A DNA stretch of 36,873 bases from an uncultured Lachnospiraceae bacterium (lineage in GTDB: Bacteria; Bacillota_A; Clostridia; Lachnospirales; Lachnospiraceae). The notes under the pieces were generated by a model. That model searched no databases. It was not told the DNA's origin and saw nothing but the letters and a program-made list of their open reading frames with translations. Where the stretch lies: NCBI GenBank assembly GCA_947564305.1, contig CANOBT010000042.1, positions 1-36,873 on the forward strand. Direction: 5' to 3'. Both the position numbers and the translations under genes were made by a program. Shown piece after piece: positions 6,274 to 20,491 of this stretch (its first letter is position 1; each line of letters begins with the position of its first letter).

Positions 6274-7998
6274 TTAATTTTCCCGGTCATATGCAATCCT
6301 GCAGGTCTTCTTATAGCATGCAACTGCATATTTGTGGATTGTCTGCATCCCATCTTGTTTGAGGACTTCAGCATAGCCGTTCCTGTCAATTTGTTTCAGC
6401 GCTTTGGCGCAGGCTTCATCATATCTTCCGTTCTCGGCATACTTGACTTCTATTACGCACCCTACCTTTTCAGAGGGAACCATCAGCCGGATATCGGTAT
6501 ATCCAATTCCGGATTCTACATTTGACTTTACTCCCCAGCTGCCTTCAGCGCCGAGCAATCCTAATAATATTCCATGATAATAATTTTCTTTTATCTCTTT
6601 TCTCACAGAAGTATCTCTGATGCTGATTGAAACAGACAGAAATTCATTGAATAATTGTTGCATTTCCTGGGCGTTGCCGTTTTTTACAGCTTCGCAGAAC
6701 CTCTGCCATCGGGTAGTATTACCTGTAATTTTTACCCGGAACCAGGAGAGGATCCGCTTTTCGTAAATCCCCAATACTTCCCGGTTCGGAATGACAAGCC
6801 TGTGAACTCCGTTTATTGGTCTTCCGGCATCAGTCAGATATCCGGTTGTGAAGAGTACGCTCCATAAATATGTTTGGCGTGTATTTTCATCTTTGCTGTC
6901 AAGGTCTGTATAGGTTAACTCCGGAATCAAGGTTTTCTCCACAGCTTCTCCGGAAATCAGGGCCTCTATCTCACTTTTTGTAGTTTCTGTTGCTACGGCA
7001 AGGATGTCCTGCACGATTGCGTTGCTGCTGCTGTTTTCCCAATGGGATTCCATGGGAGCTTCCGGCCATGCCCGAAGTTTATCACATTGATTTAGTACAT
7101 CCCATGGACAGTATAAATCCGTGTCTCCAAAATGATACCCGTCATACCATTCTCTGATTTGCCCATAAGATGCTTCCAGCCCGTAGTAGGAAAGCAATTC
7201 TCTTACTTCACTGTCTGTAAAGCCAAAGTATTCTGAAAAATCCACATCAGAAATAGTTTTTACTTTAAAATTATTTAAACCGGTAAAAATGCTCTCCCTG
7301 GCAATCCTCAGACATCCCGTAATTACAGCGAAATATAGATTTTTATTCGTCTTAAGCACCTGGCTGAATAGGGAGCGGATTAGATTTACTATTTCCATAT
7401 AATAGCCTTTCTGCCAAGCTTTGTCCAATGGAACATCATATTCATCAATTAGCACAATTACCTGAGTTCCATAATGCTTGGAAAGCAATTCTGTCAGAAG
7501 CCTCAAACTACTATGGAGATAAACGGCCTTCTCAAAATCTCCTGCCAGTAATCGCGTCAGTCGTTGTTTATCAAATGGCGTCAGCTTATTGCTGTTCATA
7601 AGGAAGTCAAACCGTCTTGCCTCTTCGCTGACCGCGCTTCCTAACATATCATATGCTGTCTGAAAGTCCATCCCTTCCGCATCTTTCAAGCTGATTGAGA
7701 TGACCGGATATTTTCCCATATACTGTTCGCAGATTGCGGTCTCCTTTGAGATATACAACCCGTCAAACAAAGCAGGATCTGTACCAATTTCGAAAAAGCT
7801 CTTCACCATGTCCATTGTCAGGCTCTTTCCAAAACGCCTGGGCCTTGTAAACAGATTTACACTTCCCCCCAGATTAATCAGGTCAGAGATAAATTTTGTT
7901 TTGTCGATATAGTAGTAATTGTCTTTTTTAAAGCGATTGAAAAATTCAACACCGATTGGAAGTTTTTTCTTTATTTCCATAGAAATAACAGGTTTCAT
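6274..7998 (-). CDS. AAA-ATPase-like protein with C-terminal PD-(D/E)XK nuclease-like domain
   Basis: A 574-residue protein of the large family often named 'AAA family ATPase / DUF1703', common in gut Clostridia and Bacteroides. The N-terminal IGVEFFNRFKKDNYYYIDKT segment is characteristic. The phosphate loop is the family's variant RPRRFGKSLTM (52-62) and the Walker B strand is VLIDEYD (182-188). The C-terminal domain at about 495-574 carries the PD-(D/E)XK pattern: Asp502 in GYTDIRL and Glu517-Val-Lys519 in VIEVKYA. The ATG at 7998 is preferred over an upstream GTG at 8007 because the GGAGG ribosome site sits 9 bases before the ATG but directly abuts the GTG. The genomic role is not established; mobile or selfish behaviour or defence have been suggested for relatives. 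It stands alone on the minus strand. Confidence 0.85.
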   Translation of the reverse strand: MKPVISMEIKKKLPIGVEFFNRFKKDNYYYIDKTKFISDLINLGGSVNLFTRPRRFGKSLTMDMVKSFFEIGTDPALFDGLYISKETAICEQYMGKYPVISISLKDAEGMDFQTAYDMLGSAVSEEARRFDFLMNSNKLTPFDKQRLTRLLAGDFEKAVYLHSSLRLLTELLSKHYGTQVIVLIDEYDVPLDKAWQKGYYMEIVNLIRSLFSQVLKTNKNLYFAVITGCLRIARESIFTGLNNFKVKTISDVDFSEYFGFTDSEVRELLSYYGLEASYGQIREWYDGYHFGDTDLYCPWDVLNQCDKLRAWPEAPMESHWENSSSNAIVQDILAVATETTKSEIEALISGEAVEKTLIPELTYTDLDSKDENTRQTYLWSVLFTTGYLTDAGRPINGVHRLVIPNREVLGIYEKRILSWFRVKITGNTTRWQRFCEAVKNGNAQEMQQLFNEFLSVSISIRDTSVRKEIKENYYHGILLGLLGAEGSWGVKSNVESGIGYTDIRLMVPSEKVGCVIEVKYAENGRYDEACAKALKQIDRNGYAEVLKQDGMQTIHKYAVACYKKTCRIAYDREN

Positions 7999-8176
7999 TG
8001 CGTGCACCCTCCTTTCCGATGTTTCCTGTGTTTAGTCTATCATAGCAATGTTTGCCGGGCAAGAAAAATGTAAATAGATGAAACAGAAAATTTATTGTAT
8101 TTGTAACTGTTTCAGCGAGGCAATTGATAAATCAGGTTTATGTACAGTTGGCTGCTATGTTTTAAATTTGCATTGC

Positions 8177-10801: not shown

Positions 10802-12978
10802 AAACAGACTTTAAGGAAGAGTGGAAGCATTTAAATCAATATCAGATGGAGGCCGTGCTAGATGAGTCTCCAGCCTGTGTGGTGAACGCCAATGTGGGCA
10901 GTGGAAAAACGACAGTGTTGATAGCAAAAATCTTATATCAGCATTATGAAAAGGCAGTTCCGCTAGAGGAAATGGCAGTCTTAACCTTCACGAATAAAGC
11001 GGCAGATGAGATTGTCGGCAGATTGAGAGAAAAGGAGCCGGATTTGTCCGGAGAACAAGTACAAGGATTCGGCACATTTCACAGTGTGGCTCTTCATTTG
11101 TTGAAGAAGCGGCTGCCAGTGGAGCAGATGGGATGGAGTCAGGCATTTACCGTAATCAGCCCGGATGAAGAAGCGGATCTGGCACTGGAAGTGATTGCCG
11201 CACAAACGTTGAAGGTGAAATACAAGAACCGCCTGAAAAAGCGTTTGGAACAGGAGTATCAAGGGTATTTACAGGGAAAAGAGTGCAGCCGATACAAGGA
11301 TGATTTATTTCGCCTGTTTCCATTACTGGAAATGGAAAAGAAGCATCAGAATAAGATGTCGTTTTCCGATTTACTTCGGGTGAGTACAAAATTGCTGTTG
11401 GCTAATGATGAGTCAAATGAAACATGGCATCCCAAGTGGATTATCGTAGATGAGGTGCAGGACAGTGACTCTCTGCAATTAGAATTTCTGGAAGCCTTGA
11501 AAGGAAAAGAGACAAAGTTATTTGCGGTCGGTGATCCAAACCAGGTCATCTACAGTTGGCGGGGGACGAAAGAAAATATGTTTTACCTTTTAAAGCACCG
11601 CTTTGAGGCAAAAGAATTGTCTCTGCCAATCAACTACCGTTCCAGTGCATCCATCCTGGAGGCGGCGAATCGATTTTTACAGACAGGTACAGGAATTCAG
11701 AGCAGCCGGGAGGAAGGAAAGAAGATTGTCATAAAGAATCATTACGATTCGTTTCAGGAGGCCGAATATCTGGCAGAAAGGATTCGGACATTGCATGCCA
11801 AGGGCAGACCCTACGGTGAGATTGCGGTATTTTACCGTCTTCAGAAACAGTCGGAGATTTTAGAAAATGTGTTTGACAGGCAGCAGATTCCTTACGAAGT
11901 TTCCATACGGAAAACGATAAAAGACATTCCAGTGTTGGACTGGCTGATCAGGGTGCTGCGTTTTTCTGTGAATCCGGCAGACGCACAGATTGGAGTGGAA
12001 GCGCTTGTGAACTCTCAATATGGGGAGAAGTGTACGAAAGCGAAAGCAAAACAGGTGATTTTGGAGCAGAAGAAAGATTGTATTTCACTCTATGATAAGA
12101 TGTGCGGGTTTGCAGAGCAGGAGCAATGGATAAAAGCGGGTGTACCGGAGGCAGCAGAGATTTTTACATATTTTGGACTAAAAGAGGCGCTCCATCCGAC
12201 GTCGTCTTCCTATGCAGAAGAAGAAAAACTTGTATTCCGGTTTCTGGAAAGAATCTGTAAATATTGTACGGAAAAGGGATATGGTTTGATTGAGGGAATT
12301 CAAGAATTCGTAAACCAGTCGGCTTTGTATGGAGTCAATGTGTTAAGTGGAGACACAGAGCCGGATATGGATGGCAAAGAAAGCACGGACGGCCGCAGTC
12401 CCAAGGATACTGTGAAACTGATGACGCTCCATGCCTCTAAGGGATTGGAATTCAAAACGGTATTTCTAATCGGAATGAACCAGGGGCTGATTCCTCTGTA
12501 TGTTCAGGATTTTGAGCAGGAAGAGGAGGAACGGAGGCTTTTTTTCGTTGGAATGACCCGTGCAAAGGATGAACTGGAGCTGTCCTATTATACCAATCCA
12601 GGAGACGCAAGAGTGTCCGGGGAGTATAGCCGGTATCTGCGAATGCTCCCGACTCATCTCTTGGAATGGGATGAACTGCGCAGTGAGGAACAGAAGCGAA
12701 GCAATCTGCAGCAGCTTCGCAGGGAGGTAAAGGAACAGATTCGGGAGAAAAGAGAAGGAGTTGAAAAAGAAGAACCTGGCGAAGAAGGATGCGTGGAAGA
12801 ACAGCTTGAAGAAGAAAAACAGGAGCAGGGAAAATCGGCGGTGCAGTATGCAAGGCATCCCAAGTATGGGAAAGGCGTGCTTGTGTCGGAGGATGAGATG
12901 ATGGTGGAAGTGGAATTTGAAGGGTATGGAAGGAAACAGTTTTTGAAGGCGTTTAACGAGGTGGAGGTTGAGGAGTAG
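10798..12978 (+). CDS. UvrD/PcrA-like superfamily 1 DNA helicase
   Basis: A 726-residue UvrD/Rep-type 3'-5' helicase. Walker A is ANVGSGKTT (31-39), motif Ia TFTNKAADEI, Walker B DEVQDSD (218-224), motif III GDPNQVIYSWRGT (245-257), motif IV NYRSS, motif V LHASKGLEF and motif VI FVGMTRAKDEL. The tail from about 680 (ARHPKYGKGVLVSEDE) resembles the Tudor-like RNA polymerase-binding C-terminus of PcrA/UvrD; a charged Glu/Lys-rich linker precedes it. Its ATG overlaps the stop of the upstream helicase (ATGA), indicating translational coupling and a shared DNA-repair role. It is somewhat short in the 2B region compared with PcrA, so it is more likely an accessory paralogue than the housekeeping PcrA. 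Confidence 0.87.
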   Translation: MKTDFKEEWKHLNQYQMEAVLDESPACVVNANVGSGKTTVLIAKILYQHYEKAVPLEEMAVLTFTNKAADEIVGRLREKEPDLSGEQVQGFGTFHSVALHLLKKRLPVEQMGWSQAFTVISPDEEADLALEVIAAQTLKVKYKNRLKKRLEQEYQGYLQGKECSRYKDDLFRLFPLLEMEKKHQNKMSFSDLLRVSTKLLLANDESNETWHPKWIIVDEVQDSDSLQLEFLEALKGKETKLFAVGDPNQVIYSWRGTKENMFYLLKHRFEAKELSLPINYRSSASILEAANRFLQTGTGIQSSREEGKKIVIKNHYDSFQEAEYLAERIRTLHAKGRPYGEIAVFYRLQKQSEILENVFDRQQIPYEVSIRKTIKDIPVLDWLIRVLRFSVNPADAQIGVEALVNSQYGEKCTKAKAKQVILEQKKDCISLYDKMCGFAEQEQWIKAGVPEAAEIFTYFGLKEALHPTSSSYAEEEKLVFRFLERICKYCTEKGYGLIEGIQEFVNQSALYGVNVLSGDTEPDMDGKESTDGRSPKDTVKLMTLHASKGLEFKTVFLIGMNQGLIPLYVQDFEQEEEERRLFFVGMTRAKDELELSYYTNPGDARVSGEYSRYLRMLPTHLLEWDELRSEEQKRSNLQQLRREVKEQIREKREGVEKEEPGEEGCVEEQLEEEKQEQGKSAVQYARHPKYGKGVLVSEDEMMVEVEFEGYGRKQFLKAFNEVEVEE

Positions 12979-13036
12979 AAAGGGATGTGAGCAGTATCTC
13001 AAGCTTGTGTTTGAGGATGTAAAGGAGGCTTTTGGG

Positions 13037-13185
13037 TATTGATTCTCCCAACTTTTGAAAGTCCAGATTTATAACCAGATACTCCTTTTGCAAAAAGGAC
13101 TCTAAAGCGCGCAGAGTCGTATTCTTCCTTTCTACTGATTTATGCTCGCCTGTAAAGCATGTCTGTCTGATGTTCCGAAATAGTT
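13037..13185 (-). pseudogene. Remnant of an AAA-like ATPase gene
   Basis: Read leftwards, 13120-13037 encodes TTLRALESFLQKEYLVINLD followed by FQKLGESI. This aligns directly with TTLRALSHFLKNDYMVISLD and FQKM of the intact ATPase at 19367. Just upstream, in a different frame, 13185-13132 reads NYFGTSDRHALQASINQ and a stop, resembling that protein's N-terminal NVNGACRSDRHYM. About 30 residues including most of the phosphate loop, and everything after about residue 80, are missing. The surrounding gap 12979-13302 is otherwise non-coding. A rightward 17-codon reading EQYLKLVFEDVKEAFGY at 12991-13041 was seen but has no support as a gene. Confidence 0.7.
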
Positions 13186-13208
13186 ATTCTTTTTTTAGAC
13201 GTTACTTC

Positions 13209-13238
13209 ATTATATCATATCCAGTTCGAAGCATACAA
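13209..13238 (-). promoter_or_regulatory. Relic promoter of the ATPase remnant
   Basis: On the minus strand TTGTAT (13238-13233) and TATAAT (13214-13209) are 18 bp apart, reading into the ATPase remnant. It may still fire, producing an untranslated transcript. Confidence 0.4.
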
Positions 13239-13302
13239 TTATTTCTTATCCGCAAATCAAAACAAACTCTGATAGTGTATTACATGAGAAAATGAAAAAT
13301 TC

Positions 13303-13352
13303 ATGGTCAAAATAAGCGTTTCGTGGACAAACAGATGAAAAAAGCAGAATAT
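13303..13352 (+). repeat. 50-bp direct repeat, left copy (contains LytTR-like site)
   Basis: This segment is repeated at 14080-14129 with only two mismatches. It holds GGTCAAAAT (13305) and GGACAAAC (13325), a 20-bp-period direct repeat. In this copy the -10 box present in the right copy is absent (GTGCAA at the equivalent place). Confidence 0.85.
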
Positions 13353-13357
13353 TTTTG

Positions 13358-13389
13358 TGCAAAATATTGCATTTTTCGTGCAAATATTA
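13358..13389 (+). promoter_or_regulatory. Candidate antitoxin operator
   Basis: TGCAA-AATA-TTGCA (13358-13371) is a perfect palindrome and a related TGCAAATATTA follows at 13379-13389. They lie 37-68 bp before the antitoxin start, where RelB/DinJ-type antitoxins usually bind to repress their own operon. No good -35/-10 pair could be fixed; the TATTAT-like AT tract at 13384-13396 is the best -10 candidate. Confidence 0.45.
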
Positions 13390-13425
13390 TATTCTATTAA
13401 GAAGCAACAGGAAGGAGATGATTAT

Positions 13426-13704
13426 ATGGCTAGCTCTACTACGAATATCAGCATCCGTATGGATTCGGATTTGAAAGCACAGGCCGATACCTTTTTCGGG
13501 GAACTTGGCATGAATCTGTCTACAGCGTTCAATATTTTTGTCCGCCAGTCGCTCCGTGAAGGCAGGATTCCTTTTGAGGTTTCTTTGAATCAGCCCAATA
13601 GAGAGACAGTCGCTGCCATGATGGAAGCGGAAAGGATTGCAGCAGACCCGTCTGTGAAAGGTTATACCGACCTGGATGAACTGTTTGCAGACTTAAAAGC
13701 ATGA
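13426..13704 (+). CDS. dinJ: Type II antitoxin, RelB/DinJ family
   Basis: A 92-residue antitoxin. Its N-terminal half (NISIRMDSDLKAQADTFFGE, LGMNLSTAFNIFVRQSLREG) is a ribbon-helix-helix DNA-binding/dimerisation domain; the C-terminal part (ETVAAMMEAERIAADPSVKG) should wrap the toxin. The ATG at 13426 is preceded by a GGAAGGAG ribosome site. A longer reading from a GTG at 13357 is possible but has no ribosome site. The stop overlaps the toxin start by ATGA. It probably represses its own promoter through the palindrome just upstream. Confidence 0.9.
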   Translation: MASSTTNISIRMDSDLKAQADTFFGELGMNLSTAFNIFVRQSLREGRIPFEVSLNQPNRETVAAMMEAERIAADPSVKGYTDLDELFADLKA

Positions 13705-13991
13705 AAAAGGCAAAGTATACCGTCAAGCCTACTACGCAGTTTAAGAAAGATTACAAGTTGGCAATCAGGCGTGGTCTGGATATTGACCAGTTGGACGATG
13801 TTATCACTACCCTTGCAATGGGCAAACATCTGCCAGAAAAAAATAAAGACCATCCCCTGTCTGGTAACTGGGTGGGACACCGTGAGTGTCATATCCTGCC
13901 AGATTGGCTGTTGGTTTATCGTATTGACGCTGATGTTCTGGTGCTGACACTGGTACGTACCGGAACGCACAGCGAATTGTTGGGGAAATGA
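13701..13991 (+). CDS. yafQ: YafQ-family mRNA interferase toxin (RelE superfamily)
   Basis: A 96-residue ribosome-dependent mRNA endonuclease. The residues matching the E. coli YafQ catalytic set are present: His51 (DHPLSG), His64, Asp68 and Trp69 (CHILPDWLLVYR), and His90 in GTHSELL; the E. coli Phe91 position is Leu94 here. The toxin is therefore probably active. Its ATG overlaps the antitoxin stop codon (ATGA), the standard arrangement for tight coupling. The module lies between two copies of a 50-bp repeat that also forms the promoter region of the LytTR gene, which suggests it was inserted into that promoter. Confidence 0.9.
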   Translation: MKKAKYTVKPTTQFKKDYKLAIRRGLDIDQLDDVITTLAMGKHLPEKNKDHPLSGNWVGHRECHILPDWLLVYRIDADVLVLTLVRTGTHSELLGK

Positions 13992-14079
13992 CATACCTGA
14001 TCCGCTGTATGGGAAAATCTTCTGTACAGCGGTTTTCGCGTGCTTATTAAATTTAAAGAGCACAGCCTTTTCAAAACTT

Positions 14080-14129
14080 ATGGTCAAAATAAGCGTTTCG
14101 CGGCCAAACAGATGAAAAAAGCAGAATAT
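14080..14129 (+). repeat. 50-bp direct repeat, right copy
   Basis: Second copy of the repeat at 13303-13352 (48 of 50 identical). The two copies bracket the toxin-antitoxin pair. This copy leads into an intact promoter for the LytTR response regulator. Confidence 0.85.
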
Positions 14130-14139
14130 ATGTTATAAT
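14082..14139 (+). promoter_or_regulatory. LytTR-like binding site and promoter of the two-component operon
   Basis: GGTCAAAAT (14082) and GGCCAAAC (14102) form a direct repeat with a 20-bp period. A TATAAT box lies at 14134-14139, 32 bp after the second repeat, with a poor -35 (GATGAA, 14111-14116). LytTR regulators are known to bind two 9-bp direct repeats about two helical turns apart next to a weak -35, so this fits an activator-dependent, autoregulated promoter. The sequence differs from the published LytTR consensus, so assignment to this regulator is inference from position and geometry. Confidence 0.65.
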
Positions 14140-14176
14140 TGTGCGAGGGGCGCAGCACAACCAAGGAGAATAAGTA

Positions 14177-14890
14177 ATGAATATTGCGATTATAGATGAT
14201 GAAGCCGCGATTTTAGACAACGTCAGGAGATGTGTTGAAAACGAGATTACAGAAAAGGATGAGGCAGAGCTATTCACTTATACAGGGGCAGAAGAGTTTC
14301 TTCAAGTGTTGGAGGAAGGACAGGAATTTGATATATTGGTTTCAGATATCGAGCTTGCCGGAATGAGCGGAATGGAGCTGGGAAGGTGGATACAGAAGCA
14401 GAAGCTTCCGATTTATCTGGTATACCTGACAGCACATTCAGAGTATGCTGCGGAGAGTTATACATTGGAGGCATACCAGTATATTCTCAAAGAAGATATG
14501 GAAAAAAGACTGCCGATGATTTTGCGGCAGTTGATTGAGCGTGTGAAGAGGGAAAAGAAGCAGTTTCGGATGATTGGTACGCCTACAAGCAAGGAGAAGA
14601 TATATTACAGGGATATTATTTACATAGAAAAGAAGAAAGGTTCAAAGTATATCCAGTATACAACAATATTTAGTACATACACAGAAAGAATCGCGCTTTC
14701 GAAAGTAAATGAGGAACTGAAAAGTGATGAGTTTATTATGGTAGAACGCGGATACATCATCAATGTCAATCACATTGCCAGTATGAAGGATAATATAATC
14801 AGGATGGATAATGACACAGAGATTATTGTCAACAGGGCAAACTTCAAAAAAGTAAAAGAGCAGATTAATCTGTACAGGGGGAGTCTGTGA
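14177..14890 (+). CDS. LytTR-family response regulator
   Basis: A 237-residue cytoplasmic regulator. Residues 1-120 form a receiver domain with acidic Asp7/Asp8, phospho-acceptor Asp57 in LVSDIEL, Thr85 and Lys105. Residues about 133-235 form a LytTR DNA-binding domain, with KIYYRDIIYIE, TYTERIALSKVNEEL and VERGYIINVNHI segments. The ATG follows an AAGGAG site. It overlaps the kinase gene by one base (TGATG), so the pair is co-translated. Relatives such as AgrA and VirR control peptide quorum sensing, bacteriocins or virulence. No autoinducer-peptide gene (AgrD/AgrB) is seen nearby. It is probably phosphorylated by the adjacent kinase and acts at the GGTCAAAA-type repeats at 14082 and 16307. 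Confidence 0.92.
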   Translation: MNIAIIDDEAAILDNVRRCVENEITEKDEAELFTYTGAEEFLQVLEEGQEFDILVSDIELAGMSGMELGRWIQKQKLPIYLVYLTAHSEYAAESYTLEAYQYILKEDMEKRLPMILRQLIERVKREKKQFRMIGTPTSKEKIYYRDIIYIEKKKGSKYIQYTTIFSTYTERIALSKVNEELKSDEFIMVERGYIINVNHIASMKDNIIRMDNDTEIIVNRANFKKVKEQINLYRGSL

Positions 14891-16197
14891 TGGCTGTAAG
14901 AGCGCTGCTGATAGGGATTACTTTTTGGGAAATCGGAATGCTGTATTGGTTGTTATGCGGTACTGTATTGGAGAAAAAGTATTTTCGAAAGAAAGAATGG
15001 AGCATACTGTGTGGAAATATTGTTGTATGGGGGATTCTTTTAGGCATCAATCGTAGTATAGGTTTTTTTTCAGATGGTATGTTTATTATAGGCATTGTAA
15101 TTACATGTTTATGTGTATTATTAATCAATGGACAAAATAAATCATTGAAAATTATTTTGGTGATTTTGTACTATACGTCAGTAGCTTTATTGGACTTTCT
15201 CTTTGCTTTTGCGAGTATGATGTTTTTAAAACAGGAGTTTGACGCAAAAGTTTATTGGTACGCAAATTCACTGACGGAATGCATCATTTTCATCTGTACG
15301 AGGATGGTTATAGCAGGAGTTATAGGTCTGCTATATAAGAAGTATCAGGAATCGTATCTATGTGAATTTCAGGGTATCTTGCTAATCACCACGATAATGA
15401 TGTGTCTGATTCTAAGGGCTTATCAGGTAGCAATCGTAAGGATGATTTATGAAAGCAGAGAGGGGGAGGCAGGCGTAACTGGAATGTCCCTTGCTGTTGT
15501 TTTACTGACGATTTTACTGATAGGAATGTTATATGTAAAAAATAAGACGATAGAAAGGGAAAAGGAATTTCTTTCGATGCGCGACGAGATGGTGACGCAG
15601 AAATTTGTGGAATTAGAAAGTGTTATGGAAAAGAACCGTCAGTTATCACATGATTTAAAGAATCATCTGATTGCGCTAAAAAATTATGAAAAAGAAGGGA
15701 ATTATGATGGCATACATCATTATCTGGAAGAAATAGAGCAAGAGTATTTTGAAGTAAAAGTGCGGATATGGACCGGAAATCCGATTGCAGATATGATTAT
15801 AGAGCAGAAACGGGCATTAGCAGAACGGGAAGGCATTTCATCATTTATAGTCCAGGCAGTGCCGATTTTGGAGTGGCCGTTTCATGACAACGAGACTTGC
15901 TCGCTGTTGGGTAATCTTTTGGATAATGCGATTGATGCATGTAAGAAGATGGACAATGAAAAGAATAGATGGATATCAATTATCATTGAGAGCCAGAAAG
16001 AATTTTTATTTATAAAAATCAGGAATTCTATTGGTGAAACACCAATTATGAAGGGAGGAAGACCGGTTTCTGTAAAGTCGGATAAGAAGAGGCACGGATA
16101 CGGATTGAAAAGTGTTGAACGGATTGTAGATAAGCATAAAGGGATTATTACGTATCAGATAAAAGAAAATATTTTTCAGGTAAATCTCTCGGTTTAG
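14890..16197 (+). CDS. GHKL sensor histidine kinase (AgrC-like architecture)
   Basis: A 435-residue membrane kinase. The first ~220 residues contain about six to seven hydrophobic helices with no large outer loop, like AgrC-type receptors. A coiled linker (about 220-248) leads to the dimerisation helix with His254 in RQLSHDLKNHL. The ATPase domain has the N box LLGNLLDNAIDACKK (Asn342, Asn346) and the G box HGYGLKSV (403-406). This is the family in which a D1/F box is replaced by a short GHKL core. The ATG at 14890 is preferred over the GTG at 14887 because it places the GGGGGAG site 6-7 bases away. It overlaps the regulator stop. The signal is unknown; the membrane domain suggests a small peptide or a membrane-derived cue. 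Confidence 0.9.
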   Translation: MAVRALLIGITFWEIGMLYWLLCGTVLEKKYFRKKEWSILCGNIVVWGILLGINRSIGFFSDGMFIIGIVITCLCVLLINGQNKSLKIILVILYYTSVALLDFLFAFASMMFLKQEFDAKVYWYANSLTECIIFICTRMVIAGVIGLLYKKYQESYLCEFQGILLITTIMMCLILRAYQVAIVRMIYESREGEAGVTGMSLAVVLLTILLIGMLYVKNKTIEREKEFLSMRDEMVTQKFVELESVMEKNRQLSHDLKNHLIALKNYEKEGNYDGIHHYLEEIEQEYFEVKVRIWTGNPIADMIIEQKRALAEREGISSFIVQAVPILEWPFHDNETCSLLGNLLDNAIDACKKMDNEKNRWISIIIESQKEFLFIKIRNSIGETPIMKGGRPVSVKSDKKRHGYGLKSVERIVDKHKGIITYQIKENIFQVNLSV

Positions 16198-16261
16198 GGA
16201 CAGAAAGTCCGCACCTTGGTTTGTGTCTTTGATATGGATGGTTTTAAATACCATAGTATGT

Positions 16262-16288
16262 AGAAAGGTTGCCAGTGGCAAGCTTTCT
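16262..16288 (+). terminator. Weak hairpin after the kinase gene
   Basis: AGAAAG-G-TTGCC pairs with GGCAA-G-CTTTCT (one G/G mismatch) around AGT. It is followed only by GTATAATGAAATTTT, so it is at best a leaky terminator before the next promoter. Confidence 0.4.
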
Positions 16289-16306
16289 GTATAATGAAAT
16301 TTTGAT

Positions 16307-16365
16307 GGTCAAAATATCATGTTTCGCGGTCAAAAGGTAGATTTATAAATATTTACCGGTATAAT
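16307..16365 (+). promoter_or_regulatory. Second LytTR-like site and promoter, upstream of the unknown two-gene operon
   Basis: GGTCAAAA occurs twice, at 16307 and 16328 (21-bp period), and a TATAAT box lies at 16360-16365. The distance from the second repeat to the -10 box is 32 bp, exactly as at the regulator's own promoter. A minimal reading MTRKD with a GTGAGGG site begins at 16419; it is too short to call a gene but could be a leader peptide. The 16366-16692 interval holds a second promoter (16497-16525) and a 33-bp repeat, and no other gene I can support. Confidence 0.65.
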
Positions 16366-16493
16366 GTGAGGATGTAAGCTGTTTTACAAAAAGCGTTTGG
16401 GAAAGTGAGGGATTATTATGACGAGAAAAGATTGAGAAAATGCAGGCAGGGTAACAATTATCAATGATTTTTATTCTGATTTTCAATGTATCT

Positions 16494-16525
16494 TTATTGA
16501 ACATGAGCAGTTCAATAAGTATTAT
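16494..16525 (+). promoter_or_regulatory. Promoter overlapped by a TTATTGAAC/GTTCAATAA inverted repeat
   Basis: The arms TTATTGAAC (16494-16502) and GTTCAATAA (16510-16518) form a perfect 9-bp inverted repeat with a 7-bp centre. Inside it TTGAAC (16497-16502) is a -35 box 17 bp from TATTAT (16520-16525). The same half-site and promoter spacing occur upstream of the FAD oxidoreductase (4451-4482). A dimeric repressor is the natural explanation. It reads towards the gene at 16693. Confidence 0.6.
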
Positions 16526-16614
16526 ATTATGGACCTTATTAGGAATAATATCAATTATGAACGATAGAGTAATTGAGCTTTGAAAAACCAGAATAAAATT
16601 TGATGCGGGTAATG

Positions 16615-16680
16615 ACTTACACTGCAAATGGTTACAACTAGACAATCACTTGCACTGCAAGTGGCTGCAGATTGAGAGAA
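16615..16680 (+). repeat. Two imperfect 33-bp tandem repeats with a near-perfect palindrome
   Basis: Copy 1 begins ACTTACACTGCAAATGG at 16615 and copy 2 begins ACTTGCACTGCAAGTGG at 16648. The second contains the palindrome CACTTGCA-C-TGCAAGTG (16647-16663), able to form a hairpin 30-46 bp before the start codon at 16693. The repeats read through without stops as two 11-residue units (LHCKWLQLDN / LHCKWLQIER), but this reading has no start codon of its own. Confidence 0.6.
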
Positions 16681-16692
16681 GGAGCAGGAATT

Positions 16693-17469
16693 ATGAATGC
16701 AGTTGGTTTTCAAAGAAGTTACAATTATGATTTACAAAAAGATGTTACATATTCTAATTCACCATCTGTTGGCGCAGAATATGGAGCATTTATGGCACAA
16801 GATAAGAATGTTCTAGAAAAAGATTCTGCAAAAAAAGAAAAGAATTCACCGCTTGTGGATTTTTCTGCAAAGGAAATTGATAAAAAGCAGTTATTTGAAC
16901 AAAGGGAAATAGAAACTGCAATGTATACCAGACGTATGAGCCGCGAATCTAAAAATGAAAAAACTCAAGAGACAGCATTAACGAAAAATCAGGAAGCGGT
17001 TTCAAATATTTTGAATGCTATGGGAGTGGAGCTAAAGGATAGTATAAATTGGAATTCAGATGGTTCAGGAAAATTGACTGATGAGCAGATTAAGGACTTG
17101 AAAGAAAGATACGATGTAGAAAATCTGAGTCAGGAAGAATACTATAATCTATTAACAGAATTGGTGAATTTGAATGTGATATCCGGCGATGATTTTGAAA
17201 AAGAGTTTGTCAAAAAGGTTCCGCCGGAAGTGGCTGAATGTGGGGGAATGCTGATGGCTGCATCTCCCGATGACTCGGAAGATGAATATAAAAATTATTT
17301 GGAGAAATTCCTCAAAGACCGTGAATTGATCGATTATTATTTGCGCGCACTTGAGAGCCGCAGATCCAGCGTTCAGGAATCGAATATAGAAAAAATGCGT
17401 AAATATTATGAAGAACAGAAAGAGCATAGTATGAGACTGTCGGATGTTTTTGAGCAGCTTAAACGATAG
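16693..17469 (+). CDS. Unknown soluble protein, first gene of the putative LytTR-controlled operon
   Basis: I do not recognise this 258-residue protein. It starts MNAVGFQRSYNYDLQKDVTY after an AAGGAG site and has no signal peptide, lipobox or membrane helix, so it is probably cytoplasmic unless secreted by a non-classical route. Residues 40-100 are rich in Lys, Glu and Ser and likely disordered. Residues 101-175 are helical, with a segment NWNSDGSGKLTDEQIKDL (118-135) that resembles a single EF-hand-like loop but is not convincing alone. A second helical part (about 195-258) ends in a charged coil. It is followed 13 bp later by a second unknown gene and preceded by two candidate regulated promoters. 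Codon use and composition look slightly AT-richer than the neighbouring metabolic genes. Confidence 0.75.
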   Translation: MNAVGFQRSYNYDLQKDVTYSNSPSVGAEYGAFMAQDKNVLEKDSAKKEKNSPLVDFSAKEIDKKQLFEQREIETAMYTRRMSRESKNEKTQETALTKNQEAVSNILNAMGVELKDSINWNSDGSGKLTDEQIKDLKERYDVENLSQEEYYNLLTELVNLNVISGDDFEKEFVKKVPPEVAECGGMLMAASPDDSEDEYKNYLEKFLKDRELIDYYLRALESRRSSVQESNIEKMRKYYEEQKEHSMRLSDVFEQLKR

Positions 17470-17482
17470 AGGGAGAAAACAG

Positions 17483-18052
17483 ATGATAGACGGAATGAAA
17501 GGATGGACGCCTAACGCATTTTCATACAAAGAAAATGTATCGTCATTACAAAAAAATAATCTTAATTTCCGGAACCGCTTGATAGACTCAGTCATAAATT
17601 CAGATCAAAATTTGAACGGAAAGCATGTGAACTTATATATGAATTGTCTCGTGAGTCAAGCATCAGGGAACGGTCAGGAGCTGCACATGAAATATGACGA
17701 AAGCTCGACAGAAGAAAATCCGGTCATTTATGCATGGGGGAAAGATTCGTCAGGAAAAGAATTTGAAACGAAGATTCATGTAAATGATATCAACCCTTAT
17801 CATGCAAGCCCGACGGAGATGAAAGCGCTGCATGCACATCTGGCAAAACAGGGCGGCGGCGTAAAAAGTGATTCGATTCCGGTAGACGTCTCTATGACGG
17901 GCTATGATGCCAACCAAAAGATAGATTTTGTCCAATATATGGAGGAATGGAATGTCATGCAAAAATTGGCGAAAAATCCGACTGCGGATTTGGGGCGTTC
18001 CCAATTGGAACAATATCTGTTTTTCTTCAGGCAGGAAAGTCAAAAAGGGTGA
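17483..18052 (+). CDS. Unknown protein, second gene of the putative LytTR-controlled operon
   Basis: I do not recognise this 189-residue protein. It begins MIDGMKGWTPNAFSYKENVS after a GAGGGAG site at 17469-17475. No signal peptide or membrane helix is visible. The middle (about 45-115) is predicted beta-rich and holds NLYMNCLVSQASGNGQELHM and a WGKDSSGKEFETKIHVNDINP segment; the C-terminal part is helical (YDANQKIDFVQYMEEWNVMQ). The HVNDINPYHASPTEMKALHA stretch has three His residues but no known catalytic pattern. Short spacing to the upstream gene and a strong terminator just downstream mark a two-gene operon. It could be a cognate partner or substrate of the upstream protein. Confidence 0.75.
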   Translation: MIDGMKGWTPNAFSYKENVSSLQKNNLNFRNRLIDSVINSDQNLNGKHVNLYMNCLVSQASGNGQELHMKYDESSTEENPVIYAWGKDSSGKEFETKIHVNDINPYHASPTEMKALHAHLAKQGGGVKSDSIPVDVSMTGYDANQKIDFVQYMEEWNVMQKLAKNPTADLGRSQLEQYLFFFRQESQKG

Positions 18053-18085
18053 TTGTGCAGGGCAGATAAAAAAGAAGAGTCAGGT

Positions 18086-18141
18086 TTTAAGCAGGGGAAT
18101 TATGGATTCGAAGAAATGATAATTCCCCTGCTTAAATTTTT
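18086..18141 (+). terminator. Strong terminator of the unknown two-gene operon
   Basis: Two perfectly complementary 18-nt arms (18086-18103 and 18119-18136, core AAGCAGGGGAATTAT) flank a 15-nt loop, followed by a T run to 18141. The reverse strand also has T-rich sequence beside the stem, so it could work both ways. Confidence 0.9.
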
Positions 18142-18243
18142 CCTTCGATACGAAACAGCCAAGGCAGACGGATAAACGTATAAAGTATTGAAAAATAAAG
18201 GTTTTTGAGATATATTAAAATGAAGCAGAGGAGGTATCCTTTT

Positions 18244-19338
18244 ATGAATAAAAATCAGATTGTCATGATTCACGGAACGGATTATATCCGGATGACAATA
18301 GAACTTTTGGAAGCCATCCATTTGGCAGATATGATTGGAGAACGCGGGAAACGGATTGCCTTGAAGCCTAATCTGCTTCATGTAGACAGGGCGGAAAACG
18401 GGGCAATCACCCATCCGGAATTAGTGGAAGGTGTGCTGCACTATTTGAAACAGTATCATTTTTCCAATGTATGTGTCATGGAAGGCGCATGGGTAGGCGC
18501 TCGTACAAGCCAGGCAGTGGAAGCATCAGGAATTGCAGAGGTATGCCGGAGGTATGAAGTGCCTTTTCTCGATTTGCAAAAGGATTCTTCCTATCGCTGT
18601 GATGCCCGCGGAATGGAATTGAAGCTTTGCAGCGAGGTTGCAAAAACGGATTTTATGATTAATATGCCTGTCTTGAAAGGACATTGTCAGACTCGGATTA
18701 CCTGCGCCATGAAAAATGCAAAGGGAGTTATCCCCAACAGTGAGAAACGGCGCTACCATACATTGGGGCTGCATAAGCCGATTGCACATTTAAACACAGT
18801 GTTGCCTTTGCAGCTTGTGTTGGTGGATAATATCTGCGGAGACTTGAATTTTGAAGAAGGCGGTAATCCGGTTGTGATGAACCGTATTTTTGCGTGTCTG
18901 GACCCGGTGCTGTGTGATGCTTATGTCTGTGAATCTATAGGGTATTCGATAGAAGAAGTTCCATATATCGGCATTGCGGCACGGCTCGGTGTGGGTAATC
19001 CGGATACTTCCGGTGCGGAATTAGTTCTTCTGAATCAGCCAACTGAGGCGCTTCCGGATATGCGTACTTCAGGCAGGATTCAGAATCTGGAAAGATATAC
19101 GGATGCCAGAGATGCCTGCAGCGCTTGTTATGGTTCCTTGGTTTATGCACTGGAACGCCTGGAGGCTCAGGGAGTGTGCCGCCGGAAAAAGGAAAAAATC
19201 TGTATTGGACAAGGATGGAAAGGGCAGACTGGAAAAATCGGTGTTGGAAACTGTGCGGGCGGCTGTCAGAAACATTTACCGGGATGTCCGCCGAAGGCAC
19301 GGGAAATCGTGGATTTTCTAAAGGAATCGTGGAATTAA
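18244..19338 (+). CDS. DUF362 domain protein, Cys-rich C-terminus
   Basis: A 364-residue cytoplasmic protein of the DUF362 family (segments RIALKPNLLHVDR, GAWVGARTSQA, DFMINMPVLKGHCQTRITCA, AMKNAKGVIPNSEKRRYH). Several DUF362 proteins carry iron-sulfur clusters. Here no classical 2[4Fe-4S] ferredoxin domain is present, but the last 75 residues hold seven cysteines: Cys292, Cys295 (DACSACYG), Cys312, Cys320, Cys337, Cys341 and Cys348 (NCAGGCQKHLPGCPP). These could bind one cluster. The ATG at 18244 is chosen for the AGGAGG site 9-10 bases upstream; in-frame ATG codons at 18220 and earlier lack one. The physiological role is unknown. It stands alone between terminator 18086-18141 and the ATPase gene 28 bp downstream. 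Confidence 0.82.
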   Translation: MNKNQIVMIHGTDYIRMTIELLEAIHLADMIGERGKRIALKPNLLHVDRAENGAITHPELVEGVLHYLKQYHFSNVCVMEGAWVGARTSQAVEASGIAEVCRRYEVPFLDLQKDSSYRCDARGMELKLCSEVAKTDFMINMPVLKGHCQTRITCAMKNAKGVIPNSEKRRYHTLGLHKPIAHLNTVLPLQLVLVDNICGDLNFEEGGNPVVMNRIFACLDPVLCDAYVCESIGYSIEEVPYIGIAARLGVGNPDTSGAELVLLNQPTEALPDMRTSGRIQNLERYTDARDACSACYGSLVYALERLEAQGVCRRKKEKICIGQGWKGQTGKIGVGNCAGGCQKHLPGCPPKAREIVDFLKESWN

Positions 19339-19366
19339 GAAAAGGCTTGGAAGGGTGAGGCTGAAA

Positions 19367-20491
19367 ATGTCAAAATTTTTTAATGTAAATGGCGCCTGCA
19401 GATCAGACAGGCATTATATGGTTAATCTTACGCCAAAACTCGAAAAAATAAAGGAAATGATAGATGGCGGGCAGTACTTTACCATTAATAAAGCAAGGCA
19501 ATTTGGAAAAACTACAACGCTGCGGGCGTTATCGCATTTTTTGAAAAATGATTATATGGTTATAAGTCTTGACTTTCAGAAAATGAGTTTTATGGATTTT
19601 GAAAAGGAATCTGCTTTTGTCAGGGGATTGGCGAGAGAAATCAATAAGCGAATTCGGAACATAGATGATGTTCCTGCTACAGCGAAAGATAGATTGTTGA
19701 GATTGGAAGACGAAAGCCTTGCCCATGTAAGAATGGCAGAAATATTTGATTGTTTTAGTGACTGGTGCGGCCAATCGGAAAAACCGGTTGTTTTAATCAT
19801 AGATGAAGTGGATACGGCGACGAACAATCAGGTATTTATTGACTTTCTTTCCCAGTTGAGGGCAGCATATCTTGACAGTGACGTTACCCCGGCGTTCCAG
19901 TCCGTGATTCTTGCAGGTGTCTATGATGTACGCAACATCAAAAGAAAGCTTCGCCCAGAGGAAGAGCACAGGGCTAACAGCCCATGGAATATTGCGGCAA
20001 AGTTCCGCATAGACATGAGTTTTTCTGTTGAAGAAATCGCAGGTATGCTTCATGAGTATGAAGCGGACTCTCATACAGGAATGAATGTGGAAGAAATGGC
20101 CAGGCTGATTTACGATGACACGTTCGGTTATCCATATCTTGTTTCTTGTTTATGTAAGAATATAGACGAGGAGATTTCCGGTGCAAAAAACTTTCCGGAT
20201 AAAAGCAGTGCATGGACCAGAGAGGGATTCCTTGAGGCGGAGAAAATTTTAGTGAGTGAAAATAATCCTCTTTTTCAGTCCCTGATTGGAAAACTGGTAG
20301 ATTATCCAGAACTTCACACGGTATTGTATGAACTTCTTTTTAATGGAAAATCAATACCATATGTGCCGCAAAATGAATACATTGAAGCAGCAGCGATGTT
20401 TGGCTTCATAAGAAATAACCATGGAACGGCTGTCATTTTCAATCGGATTTTTGAGACAGTGCTGTATAATCTAGATTACCTTAAAAGATAA
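19367..20491 (+). CDS. AAA-like ATPase (single-domain)
   Basis: A 374-residue cytoplasmic ATPase. The family start (FFNVNGACRSDRHYMVNLTP) precedes a phosphate loop ARQFGKTTTLRAL (43-55) and a Walker B strand VVLIIDEVD (141-149). It is smaller than the ATPase/nuclease fusion at 6274-7998 and has no PD-(D/E)XK tail; the C-terminal part looks like a winged-helix region (FNGKSIPYVPQNEYIEAAAM). The ATG at 19367 is preferred to the GTG at 19355 since the protein family starts there and GAAGGGTGAGG lies before it. A decayed relative is present at 13037-13185, so the family appears to spread or duplicate within the genome. Function is not established. Confidence 0.8.
   Translation: MSKFFNVNGACRSDRHYMVNLTPKLEKIKEMIDGGQYFTINKARQFGKTTTLRALSHFLKNDYMVISLDFQKMSFMDFEKESAFVRGLAREINKRIRNIDDVPATAKDRLLRLEDESLAHVRMAEIFDCFSDWCGQSEKPVVLIIDEVDTATNNQVFIDFLSQLRAAYLDSDVTPAFQSVILAGVYDVRNIKRKLRPEEEHRANSPWNIAAKFRIDMSFSVEEIAGMLHEYEADSHTGMNVEEMARLIYDDTFGYPYLVSCLCKNIDEEISGAKNFPDKSSAWTREGFLEAEKILVSENNPLFQSLIGKLVDYPELHTVLYELLFNGKSIPYVPQNEYIEAAAMFGFIRNNHGTAVIFNRIFETVLYNLDYLKR

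Follow-up and report, generated by a model that had tools for sequence, protein, structure and literature searches.

Which protein reads the paired direct repeats that stand around a LytTR regulator gene of an uncultured Lachnospiraceae bacterium, and what do these repeats control? The question is raised by contig CANOBT010000042.1 of assembly GCA_947564305.1, whose 36,873 nucleotides, analysed as a whole, are called the window below. Three pairs of repeats lie there on the forward strand: one before an operon encoding a response regulator and a GHKL sensor kinase, one before two cargo genes and one before a toxin-antitoxin module. These repeats are very probably the operators of the predicted LytTR regulator encoded at 14177, which would activate through them its own operon and the cargo promoter. 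The features on which the argument rests are the following.

13303..13351, + strand: site 1, a shortened copy (49 bp) of site 2 with repeats at 13305 and 13325 (47/49 identity; no -10 at +32)
14082..14109, + strand: site 2, GGTCAAAA-N12-GGCCAAAC, proposed operator of the regulator-kinase operon (conserved upstream of related regulators)
14134..14139, + strand: TATAAT, the -10 of site 2 (32 bp downstream of where the second repeat begins)
14177..14890, + strand: response regulator with receiver and LytTR domains (PF00072, E 1e-14; PF04397, E 1.4e-12)
14890..16197, + strand: GHKL sensor kinase, overlapping the stop codon of the regulator gene (PF14501, E 5e-21)
16307..16335, + strand: site 3, GGTCAAAA-N13-GGTCAAAA, proposed operator of the cargo operon (exact repeats, profile scores)
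16360..16365, + strand: TATAAT, the -10 of site 3 (32 bp downstream of where the second repeat begins)
16693..17469, + strand: cargo gene 1, 258 amino acids, without known family in a Pfam scan (five relatives besides itself)
17483..18052, + strand: cargo gene 2, 189 amino acids, without known family (domain of about 50 amino acids in common with proteins behind class C sites, defined below)

Paired repeats and promoters in the window

Exact copies of GGTCAAAA start at 13305, 14082, 16307 and 16328, and the downstream partners deviate at the first two sites (GGACAAAC at 13325, GGCCAAAC at 14102); site 3 is the only one of the three with both repeats exact. The period is 20 bp at sites 1 and 2 and 21 bp at site 3. 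The first-pass annotation had described pairs of this period at 13305/13325, 14082/14102 and 16307/16328, each of which is present as claimed, and an identical distance from repeat to TATAAT at sites 2 and 3, which measurement bears out: the boxes start at 14134 and 16360, each 32 bp past the start of the second repeat. The poor -35 that it also described is indeed weak, but it is not absent at site 2, where ATGAAA lies a 16-bp spacer away from the -10 and a TG precedes the latter. Its regulon of three sites stands for sites 2 and 3 and shrinks at site 1, which is a 47/49 copy (13303-13351) of the site 2 region (14080-14128), carries GTGCAA where the -10 should be and lies before a toxin-antitoxin module. 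The window thus holds two independent sites and one duplicate.

Octamers resembling GGTCAAAA with at most one mismatch number 45 in the window against 45.8 expected; since single octamers are not enriched, the information sits in the paired arrangement only. A profile built from the relatives' sites with the window excluded ranks the three places first, second and third at 33.5, 17.3 (site 1) and 10.9 bits, while the maximum score of 60 Markov windows has a median of 5.1 and a largest value of 14.5, so that sites 3 and 1 score above every null window. Profile R1, for which sites 2 and 3 were among the training sites, gives the three sites 42.1, 40.0 and 35.3 bits, and the next-best place in the window 8.1.

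Conservation of the pair beside related regulators

With each species represented by a single genome, the search for relatives of the regulator returned 11 loci. The first-pass annotation had made its proposal depend on conservation of the repeats beside orthologous regulators, and this was found: the pair is kept upstream of the regulator in 10/10 loci whose regulator is 66-70% identical, as GG(T/C)CAAAA-N12-GG(A/C)CAAA about 95-106 bp before the regulator start, and it is absent in L011 (41% identity), the sole locus of the 11 without it. Two of the ten, L007 and L010, are the two ends of one contig and represent the same locus, which leaves nine distinct places, some of them near copies. 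That contig, NZ_WUQX01000003.1 (a Sporofaciens musculi plasmid), carries the locus at both ends with small indels and frame breaks, possibly as an untrimmed circular overlap.

A weight matrix made from the regulator-upstream sites was used to find further sites in the same loci. Class A sites lie before a conserved open reading frame (ORF) of about 190 codons 5' of the regulator (8 of 10 loci), and class C sites lie behind the kinase or LanM gene in all seven loci whose contig reaches that far, with an extra one in L002. Their scores range from 14 to 33; in 20 one-strand shuffles of L001 no score exceeded 11.4. In most of the relatives' sites a -10 is found 31-33 bp after the second repeat; the exceptions are the error-ridden copy in L007 and the class C site of L001, which points away from the nearest cargo genes.

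Genomes G002 and G003 contain a paralogous system whose regulator is 57% identical. At the regulator its site has the sequence AGCCAAAA-N12-GGCCAAAG, and behind its LanM TGCCAAAA-N12-TGCCAAAG, with half-sites (A/G)GCCAAA and, at the cargo promoter, TGCCAAA. This is weakly consistent with a motif that would drift together with its regulator, an argument weakened by L006, which also has GGCCAAA beside a regulator of 66% identity.

Genome-wide and distant occurrences

Profile R1 (19 sites, 65 positions) was run on nine genomes. Its 37 matches at E<1e-3 are confined to the six genomes (about 33 Mb) that have a close regulator; 17 of these matches belong to the training set, and the remaining 20 include several near copies of training sites. 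The three genomes with distant regulators (G007, G295, G329) had no match at E<1e-3, the best being 0.0011. In a survey of the genus, 8 of 12 genomes had a match at E<=0.1, three of them weak matches only (G403, G405 and G406, best E 3e-4 to 0.035). The repeats combine a defined architecture with conservation and genomic specificity.

New places emerged from this search, with genes assigned by eye. The site of L075 lies behind kinase, LanA-like ORF and LanM and before a gene with a signal-peptide-like start; that of L083 stands before two cargo genes; that of L081 lies behind a LanM remnant and before another gene with a signal-peptide-like start; and that of L079 precedes a gene of 343 amino acids without known family, with no regulator recognised nearby. 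In L076 and L077 the sites stand at remnants of the regulator-kinase operon. The orphan sites of L076, L077, L080 and L081 accompany kinase-gene remnants, no evident gene, or a LanM fragment, and the system seems to decay or to be lost often.

Relatives of the regulator at E<=1e-40 were present in 10/397 sampled genomes of the family, and a profile search of the order found one in 14/392 genomes; the viral contigs searched contained none. For the distant loci, the matrix was trained on sites beside regulators of 57% identity or more and on no others. Four of 24 loci were dropped because their upstream sequence had already been used, and in the remaining 20 half-sites 20-22 bp apart with a -10 at 31-33 bp were scored against 300 Markov sequences, on upstream stretches of 400 and 1400 bp. 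Such an arrangement was present at p<=0.013 in 8/20 loci with regulators of 27-49% identity (L024, L025, L027, L028, L029, L030, L130 and L132), L027, L030 and L130 reaching this level in the 1400-bp stretch only; the test is independent for its matrix and not wholly so for its spacings. For instance, the L030 site reads ATTCGAGGACAA/TTTCGAGGACAA/TACAAT, and L132 has ATTTACGGACAA twice, then TATAAT. A further candidate, L126, looked similar by eye and was rejected as not significant (p 0.27, 400-bp test). At L162:1898-5418, two ORFs that look by eye like the modular cargo proteins lie after a distant regulator-kinase pair whose regulator is 32% identical; as in the window, no LanM lies between kinase and cargo-like ORFs.

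Close loci, the additional site classes, the genome-wide matches and the distant loci all supplied examples of direct repeats spaced by about two helical turns and lying upstream of target promoters. A chance origin of the repeats was dropped after the conservation at close loci, the matrix scans, the genome-wide profile and the relatives-only profile.

Lanthipeptide genes and cargo in related loci

In many loci of the relatives, regulator, GHKL kinase, a short LanA-like peptide, LanM and cargo follow each other in this order. Among the relatives with the full locus is a cultured one, Dorea sp. 5-2, from which L001 and L008 come. A LanA-like ORF occupies the gap between kinase and LanM in 5/5 close gaps and in 9/9 distant gaps examined, the latter listed from ORFs with at least two cysteines. 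It has 42-57 codons depending on the start chosen, an acidic leader and a core that ends Cys-Cys (CCS in one case), and the four peptides scanned had no NCBIfam match. All ten LanM proteins scanned match TIGR03897, and the WCHG and CHG motifs are kept in 3/3 proteins checked. Most of these proteins are full length; in L001 the gene is broken into two frames, and in L153 only a fragment is left. The small ORF of class A sites is homologous across the 12 loci compared; its scanned proteins match no known family in Pfam or NCBIfam, and it was not seen by eye in the ORF lists of L152 and L154. L152 and L162 have regulator and kinase without LanM in the stretch fetched.

In parallel, a search with LanM only gave hits in 9/250 genomes, seven of them new relative to the regulator searches, and six loci were fetched (G032 not among them). 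Four of the six have LytTR regulator, GHKL kinase, LanA-like ORF and LanM in order; L157 is cut by the contig end, and L160 has no recognised regulator nearby. Sites scored above all 40 nulls in L155, L156 and L157 and above 39/40 in L158. Because LanM-found loci carry sites, the motif is recovered from LanM with neither regulator nor motif in the search. Over whole loci of about 10 kb, the sites of L149-L153 and L155-L157 beat 40/40 nulls, and those of L158 and L161 beat 39/40.

Of the pair that marks a class II lanthipeptide locus, the relatives have LanM and, as putative precursor, the LanA-like ORF. In the window neither LanA nor LanM had a significant match, the best LanA match (E 0.015) lying elsewhere in the window, and no homologue of the small ORF was found there. 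LanT transporter and immunity genes were not recognised by eye in the ORF lists, which were not searched systematically for them. Behind a candidate site downstream of LanM, L158:1699-2448 on the minus strand encodes a Peptidase_C39-like protein (PF13529), which might be a leader-processing protease. Near class C sites, the proteins at L154:555-1040 (minus strand) and L007:8216-8584 match DUF2712 and DUF4879, respectively.

The two cargo proteins of the window match no Pfam or NCBIfam family at a useful level, and an AlphaFold2 model of the first (mean predicted local distance difference test score, pLDDT, 49) was not used. The domain of about 50 amino acids in cargo gene 2 is 45-52% identical over 46-62 amino acids to relatives. 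It occurs in L002_3531, L083_2759 and L002_8126, all behind class C sites, and also in L078_2666, which is not behind one. Four of the five relatives of cargo gene 1 carry a C-terminal domain absent from gene 1 itself, and this domain is common to L002_8126 and L010_3556, both behind class C sites. The idea that the whole cargo family lies under the site was rejected after following P0124, a 377-amino-acid homologue of cargo gene 1: the family extends beyond the regulon.

A 39-codon hydrophobic ORF (16464-16583), placed in the leader that separates site 3 from cargo gene 1, is by eye unlike the LanA-like peptides. Genes for AAA-ATPases are predicted elsewhere in the window at 6274-8007 (minus strand; PF09820 with PDDEXK_9) and 19355-20491 (PF14516), and by eye similar ORFs adjoin some related loci (L076, L081, L084).

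Proposed mechanism and observations against it

Taken together, the promoter layouts suggest the following sequence of events. Stimulation of the GHKL kinase would lead to phosphorylation of the regulator, which would then bind two half-sites, roughly TTYRNGG(T/A/C)CAA, 20-22 bp apart. The promoter-proximal half-site would abut a weak -35, and transcription would be activated from the -10 placed 31-33 bp past the second repeat. Site 2 would drive the regulator-kinase operon itself, a positive feedback, and site 3 a separate two-gene cargo operon, site 1 being a truncated duplicate beside the toxin-antitoxin module. We infer the 14177 regulator as binder, activation as direction and a response to the kinase; activation is favoured because the -35 is weak and the proximal repeat abuts its position. 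The window system would be a reduced member of a locus family in Lachnospiraceae and relatives, the complete form of which would comprise small ORF, regulator, kinase, LanA-like peptide, LanM and cargo.

Several observations weigh against this reading. Within the window, site 2 alone does not exceed the 60-window Markov null of the relatives-only profile. No class A site is among the best matches in L006 and L009, and the genome-wide sites L078 and L080 stand by eye before no recognised gene. No significant pair was found at 12/20 distant regulator loci; the spacings allowed in that test were chosen once the pattern had already been noticed in the upstream stretches of L025, L028, L029, L126 and L132, and of the eight positive loci L027, L030 and L130 alone lie outside the sequences inspected beforehand. 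L159 and L160 have LanM and no significant site, and in L154 and L162 the known sites do not stand out over whole loci, where 6/40 nulls reach them. Finally, just 4/35 loci with a relative of P0124 have a site, all four beside a regulator, and these matched in the C-terminal domain that cargo gene 1 lacks.

Binding specificity and alternative explanations

The regulator is a LytTR response regulator by its domains, both of which match above cut-off. According to the excerpts of published papers on which this and the following comparisons rest, the contact motif FhRhHRS is highly conserved, and R198, N201 and S202 of AgrA contact DNA (PMC4227749). It reads FIMVERG in the window regulator, and E or D replaces its H in 13/13 aligned regulators, so that the contact motif differs from that quoted for AgrA. 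The comparison was made by eye, a search of PDB sequences having matched mostly receiver domains, and FhRhHRS was not treated as an absolute criterion because the LytTR domain match is clear. The position of the repeats differs as well: in typical promoters of LytTR regulatory systems (LRS) the proximal repeat lies about 42 bp before the -10 (9 + 10 + 6 + 17; PMC6193735, Table 3), and here it lies 32 bp before it, about one helical turn nearer. The first-pass annotation had held that the motif departs from published LytTR repeats and would represent a new binding specificity. Comparison with the repeats tabulated in PMC6193735 (Table 3) agrees on the departure; the altered contact motif and the nearer repeats fit a changed specificity without proving it, and the new specificity itself is an inference from these sequences.

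It may be instead that there is no new specificity and that the half-site, read on the minus strand, is an ordinary LytTR variant, (A/T)CC(A/G)CTTA, reversed with respect to the promoter. Many half-sites do read (A/T)CC(A/G/T)(C/T) on that strand, and their first five bases resemble the tabulated ACCACTTAC, ACCGCTTAT, TCCACTTAT and similar sites (PMC6193735, Table 3). Against this, AGTC and AGCC, found as first half-sites in classes A and C, do not match the variant. Other bases stand in place of the tabulated TT, the site would have to be turned round, the proximal repeat lies about 10 bp closer to the -10, and FhRhHRS is altered at R and H. This explanation is less likely.

A role for site 1, coupling the RelB/YafQ module to the regulator, is improbable. 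Further features, the first two of them beside site 1, are:

13426..13704, + strand: RelB-type antitoxin gene, between the two 49-bp copies (PF04221, E 1.1e-12)
13701..13991, + strand: YafQ-type toxin gene (PF15738, E 4.1e-36)
16269..16281, + strand: terminator-like hairpin 3' of the kinase gene (hairpin scan)

Site 1 lies directly upstream of the module, matches site 2 at 47/49 bp and scores 17.3 in the relatives-only profile; nevertheless it lacks a -10 where one would be needed, the antitoxin gene has a separate TATTCT closer to it, an inverted repeat followed by T's stands after the toxin gene (both by inspection), and the relatives' ORF lists contain by eye no such module at this position. 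Within 13303-14128 the module is flanked by near-identical 49-bp promoter fragments, as if its arrival had duplicated part of the promoter. As to the hairpins, five terminator-like ones were found in 12950-18250, against 2.8 expected.

That another regulator binds the repeats, the LytTR protein acting elsewhere, is quite unlikely. The protein of the small ORF would be one candidate: this ORF adjoins a site in most relatives, and its scanned members belong to no known family. Yet the window, L152 and L154 have sites, while no small-ORF homologue was found in the window and none was seen beside the site in the ORF lists of L152 and L154, and the period of 20-22 bp, the direct orientation and the position just upstream of the promoter are traits of LytTR sites (PMC6193735, PMC2766830). 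Preservation by common descent of the promoter alone, with no regulatory role, is scarcely credible: similarity between the closest loci does reach beyond the sites, some of which nearly copy one another, but repeats and -10 are kept where linker and flanks have changed, and the arrangement recurs at three promoter classes, before the L079 gene without recognised regulator nearby and beside regulators of 30-43% identity.

Comparison with known systems and a possible signal

The proposed operator system, a LytTR regulator acting with its GHKL kinase, resembles AgrA/AgrC, where repeats lie upstream of promoters with suboptimal -35/-10 spacing (PMC4227749). The kinase matches the AgrC model weakly, with 38 of 500 bits, far under the cut-off. 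In contrast to the Agr system, LanA-like peptide and LanM follow the kinase in the relatives; inspection by eye of the ORF lists, for the window and for the loci of its relatives alike, turned up no AgrB or AgrD, and no dedicated search for them was made. Motif and contact residues differ from those of AgrA, and the repeats are nearer to the transcription start than AgrA's -60.

The LRS HdrRM and BrsRM share with the present system 12-bp-spaced direct repeats just upstream of their own promoter, positive autoregulation (here proposed) and repeats that diverge from the consensus (PMC6193735). Their partner is a membrane inhibitor and their repeats lie mostly 10 bp before the -35 (PMC6193735), whereas the regulator here has a receiver domain, a GHKL kinase (PF14501) as partner and repeats about one helical turn nearer; the window pair is thus not an LRS. 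SilA/SilB also has a LytTR regulator and two 10-bp direct repeats with an 11-bp spacer, the exact spacing of which is essential (PMC2766830); its motif is another one, and its pheromone is not described as lanthionine-modified in the excerpt of that paper (PMC2766830).

With respect to the lanthipeptide genes, the C. acetobutylicum (Clostridium acetobutylicum) gene CA_C0082 is a lanM-type gene beside a LytTR/GHKL system and is controlled by Agr as its effector, control being proposed here (PMC10301443). In the available text, CA_C0082 is without zinc ligands, lies behind agrBD-agrCA and has no lanthipeptide precursor (PMC10301443). The LanM proteins described here are mostly full length, keep WCHG and CHG in the three checked and have a LanA-like gene adjoining. 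The ruminococcin A peptide ends Cys-Cys. Its locus in Ruminococcus gnavus E1 likewise belongs to a gut bacterium and joins an LanM-type lanthipeptide to a two-component system, rumRK, together with the transport and processing genes rumTX and proposed immunity genes (PMC6071512).

It can tentatively be proposed that in the complete locus a modified LanA-like peptide, sensed by the GHKL kinase, replaces the Agr pheromone and leads the regulator to activate, through the TTYRNGG(T/A)CAA repeats, its own operon and the cargo. The peptide would be modified by LanM, exported and then sensed, and systems without LanA and LanM, as in the window, would be receivers only, hearing a paralogue or their neighbours. 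The modified peptide is a good candidate for the signal because its gene lies between kinase and synthetase, because no transporter or immunity gene was recognised by eye and because lanthipeptides can signal for their own production (PMC10301443).

Novelty and meaning

Autoregulation of LytTR proteins through direct repeats was already known (PMC6193735), as was a LanM-like protein under Agr control (PMC10301443). In searches of openly licensed literature, outside which most subscription papers fall, no description of this motif, of this promoter geometry or of the regulator-kinase-LanA-LanM locus was recognised. The proposed operator gives a concrete, testable target to a clade of regulators that is rare in the family yet recurs in distant relatives, and it turns a cryptic motif of a metagenomic contig into a genome-wide finder of regulons. 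It also connects uncharacterised LanA-like peptides ending Cys-Cys, together with the accompanying LanM enzymes, with cargo proteins and a two-component switch, so that the role of these peptides, be it antibiotic, signal or both, becomes directly testable.

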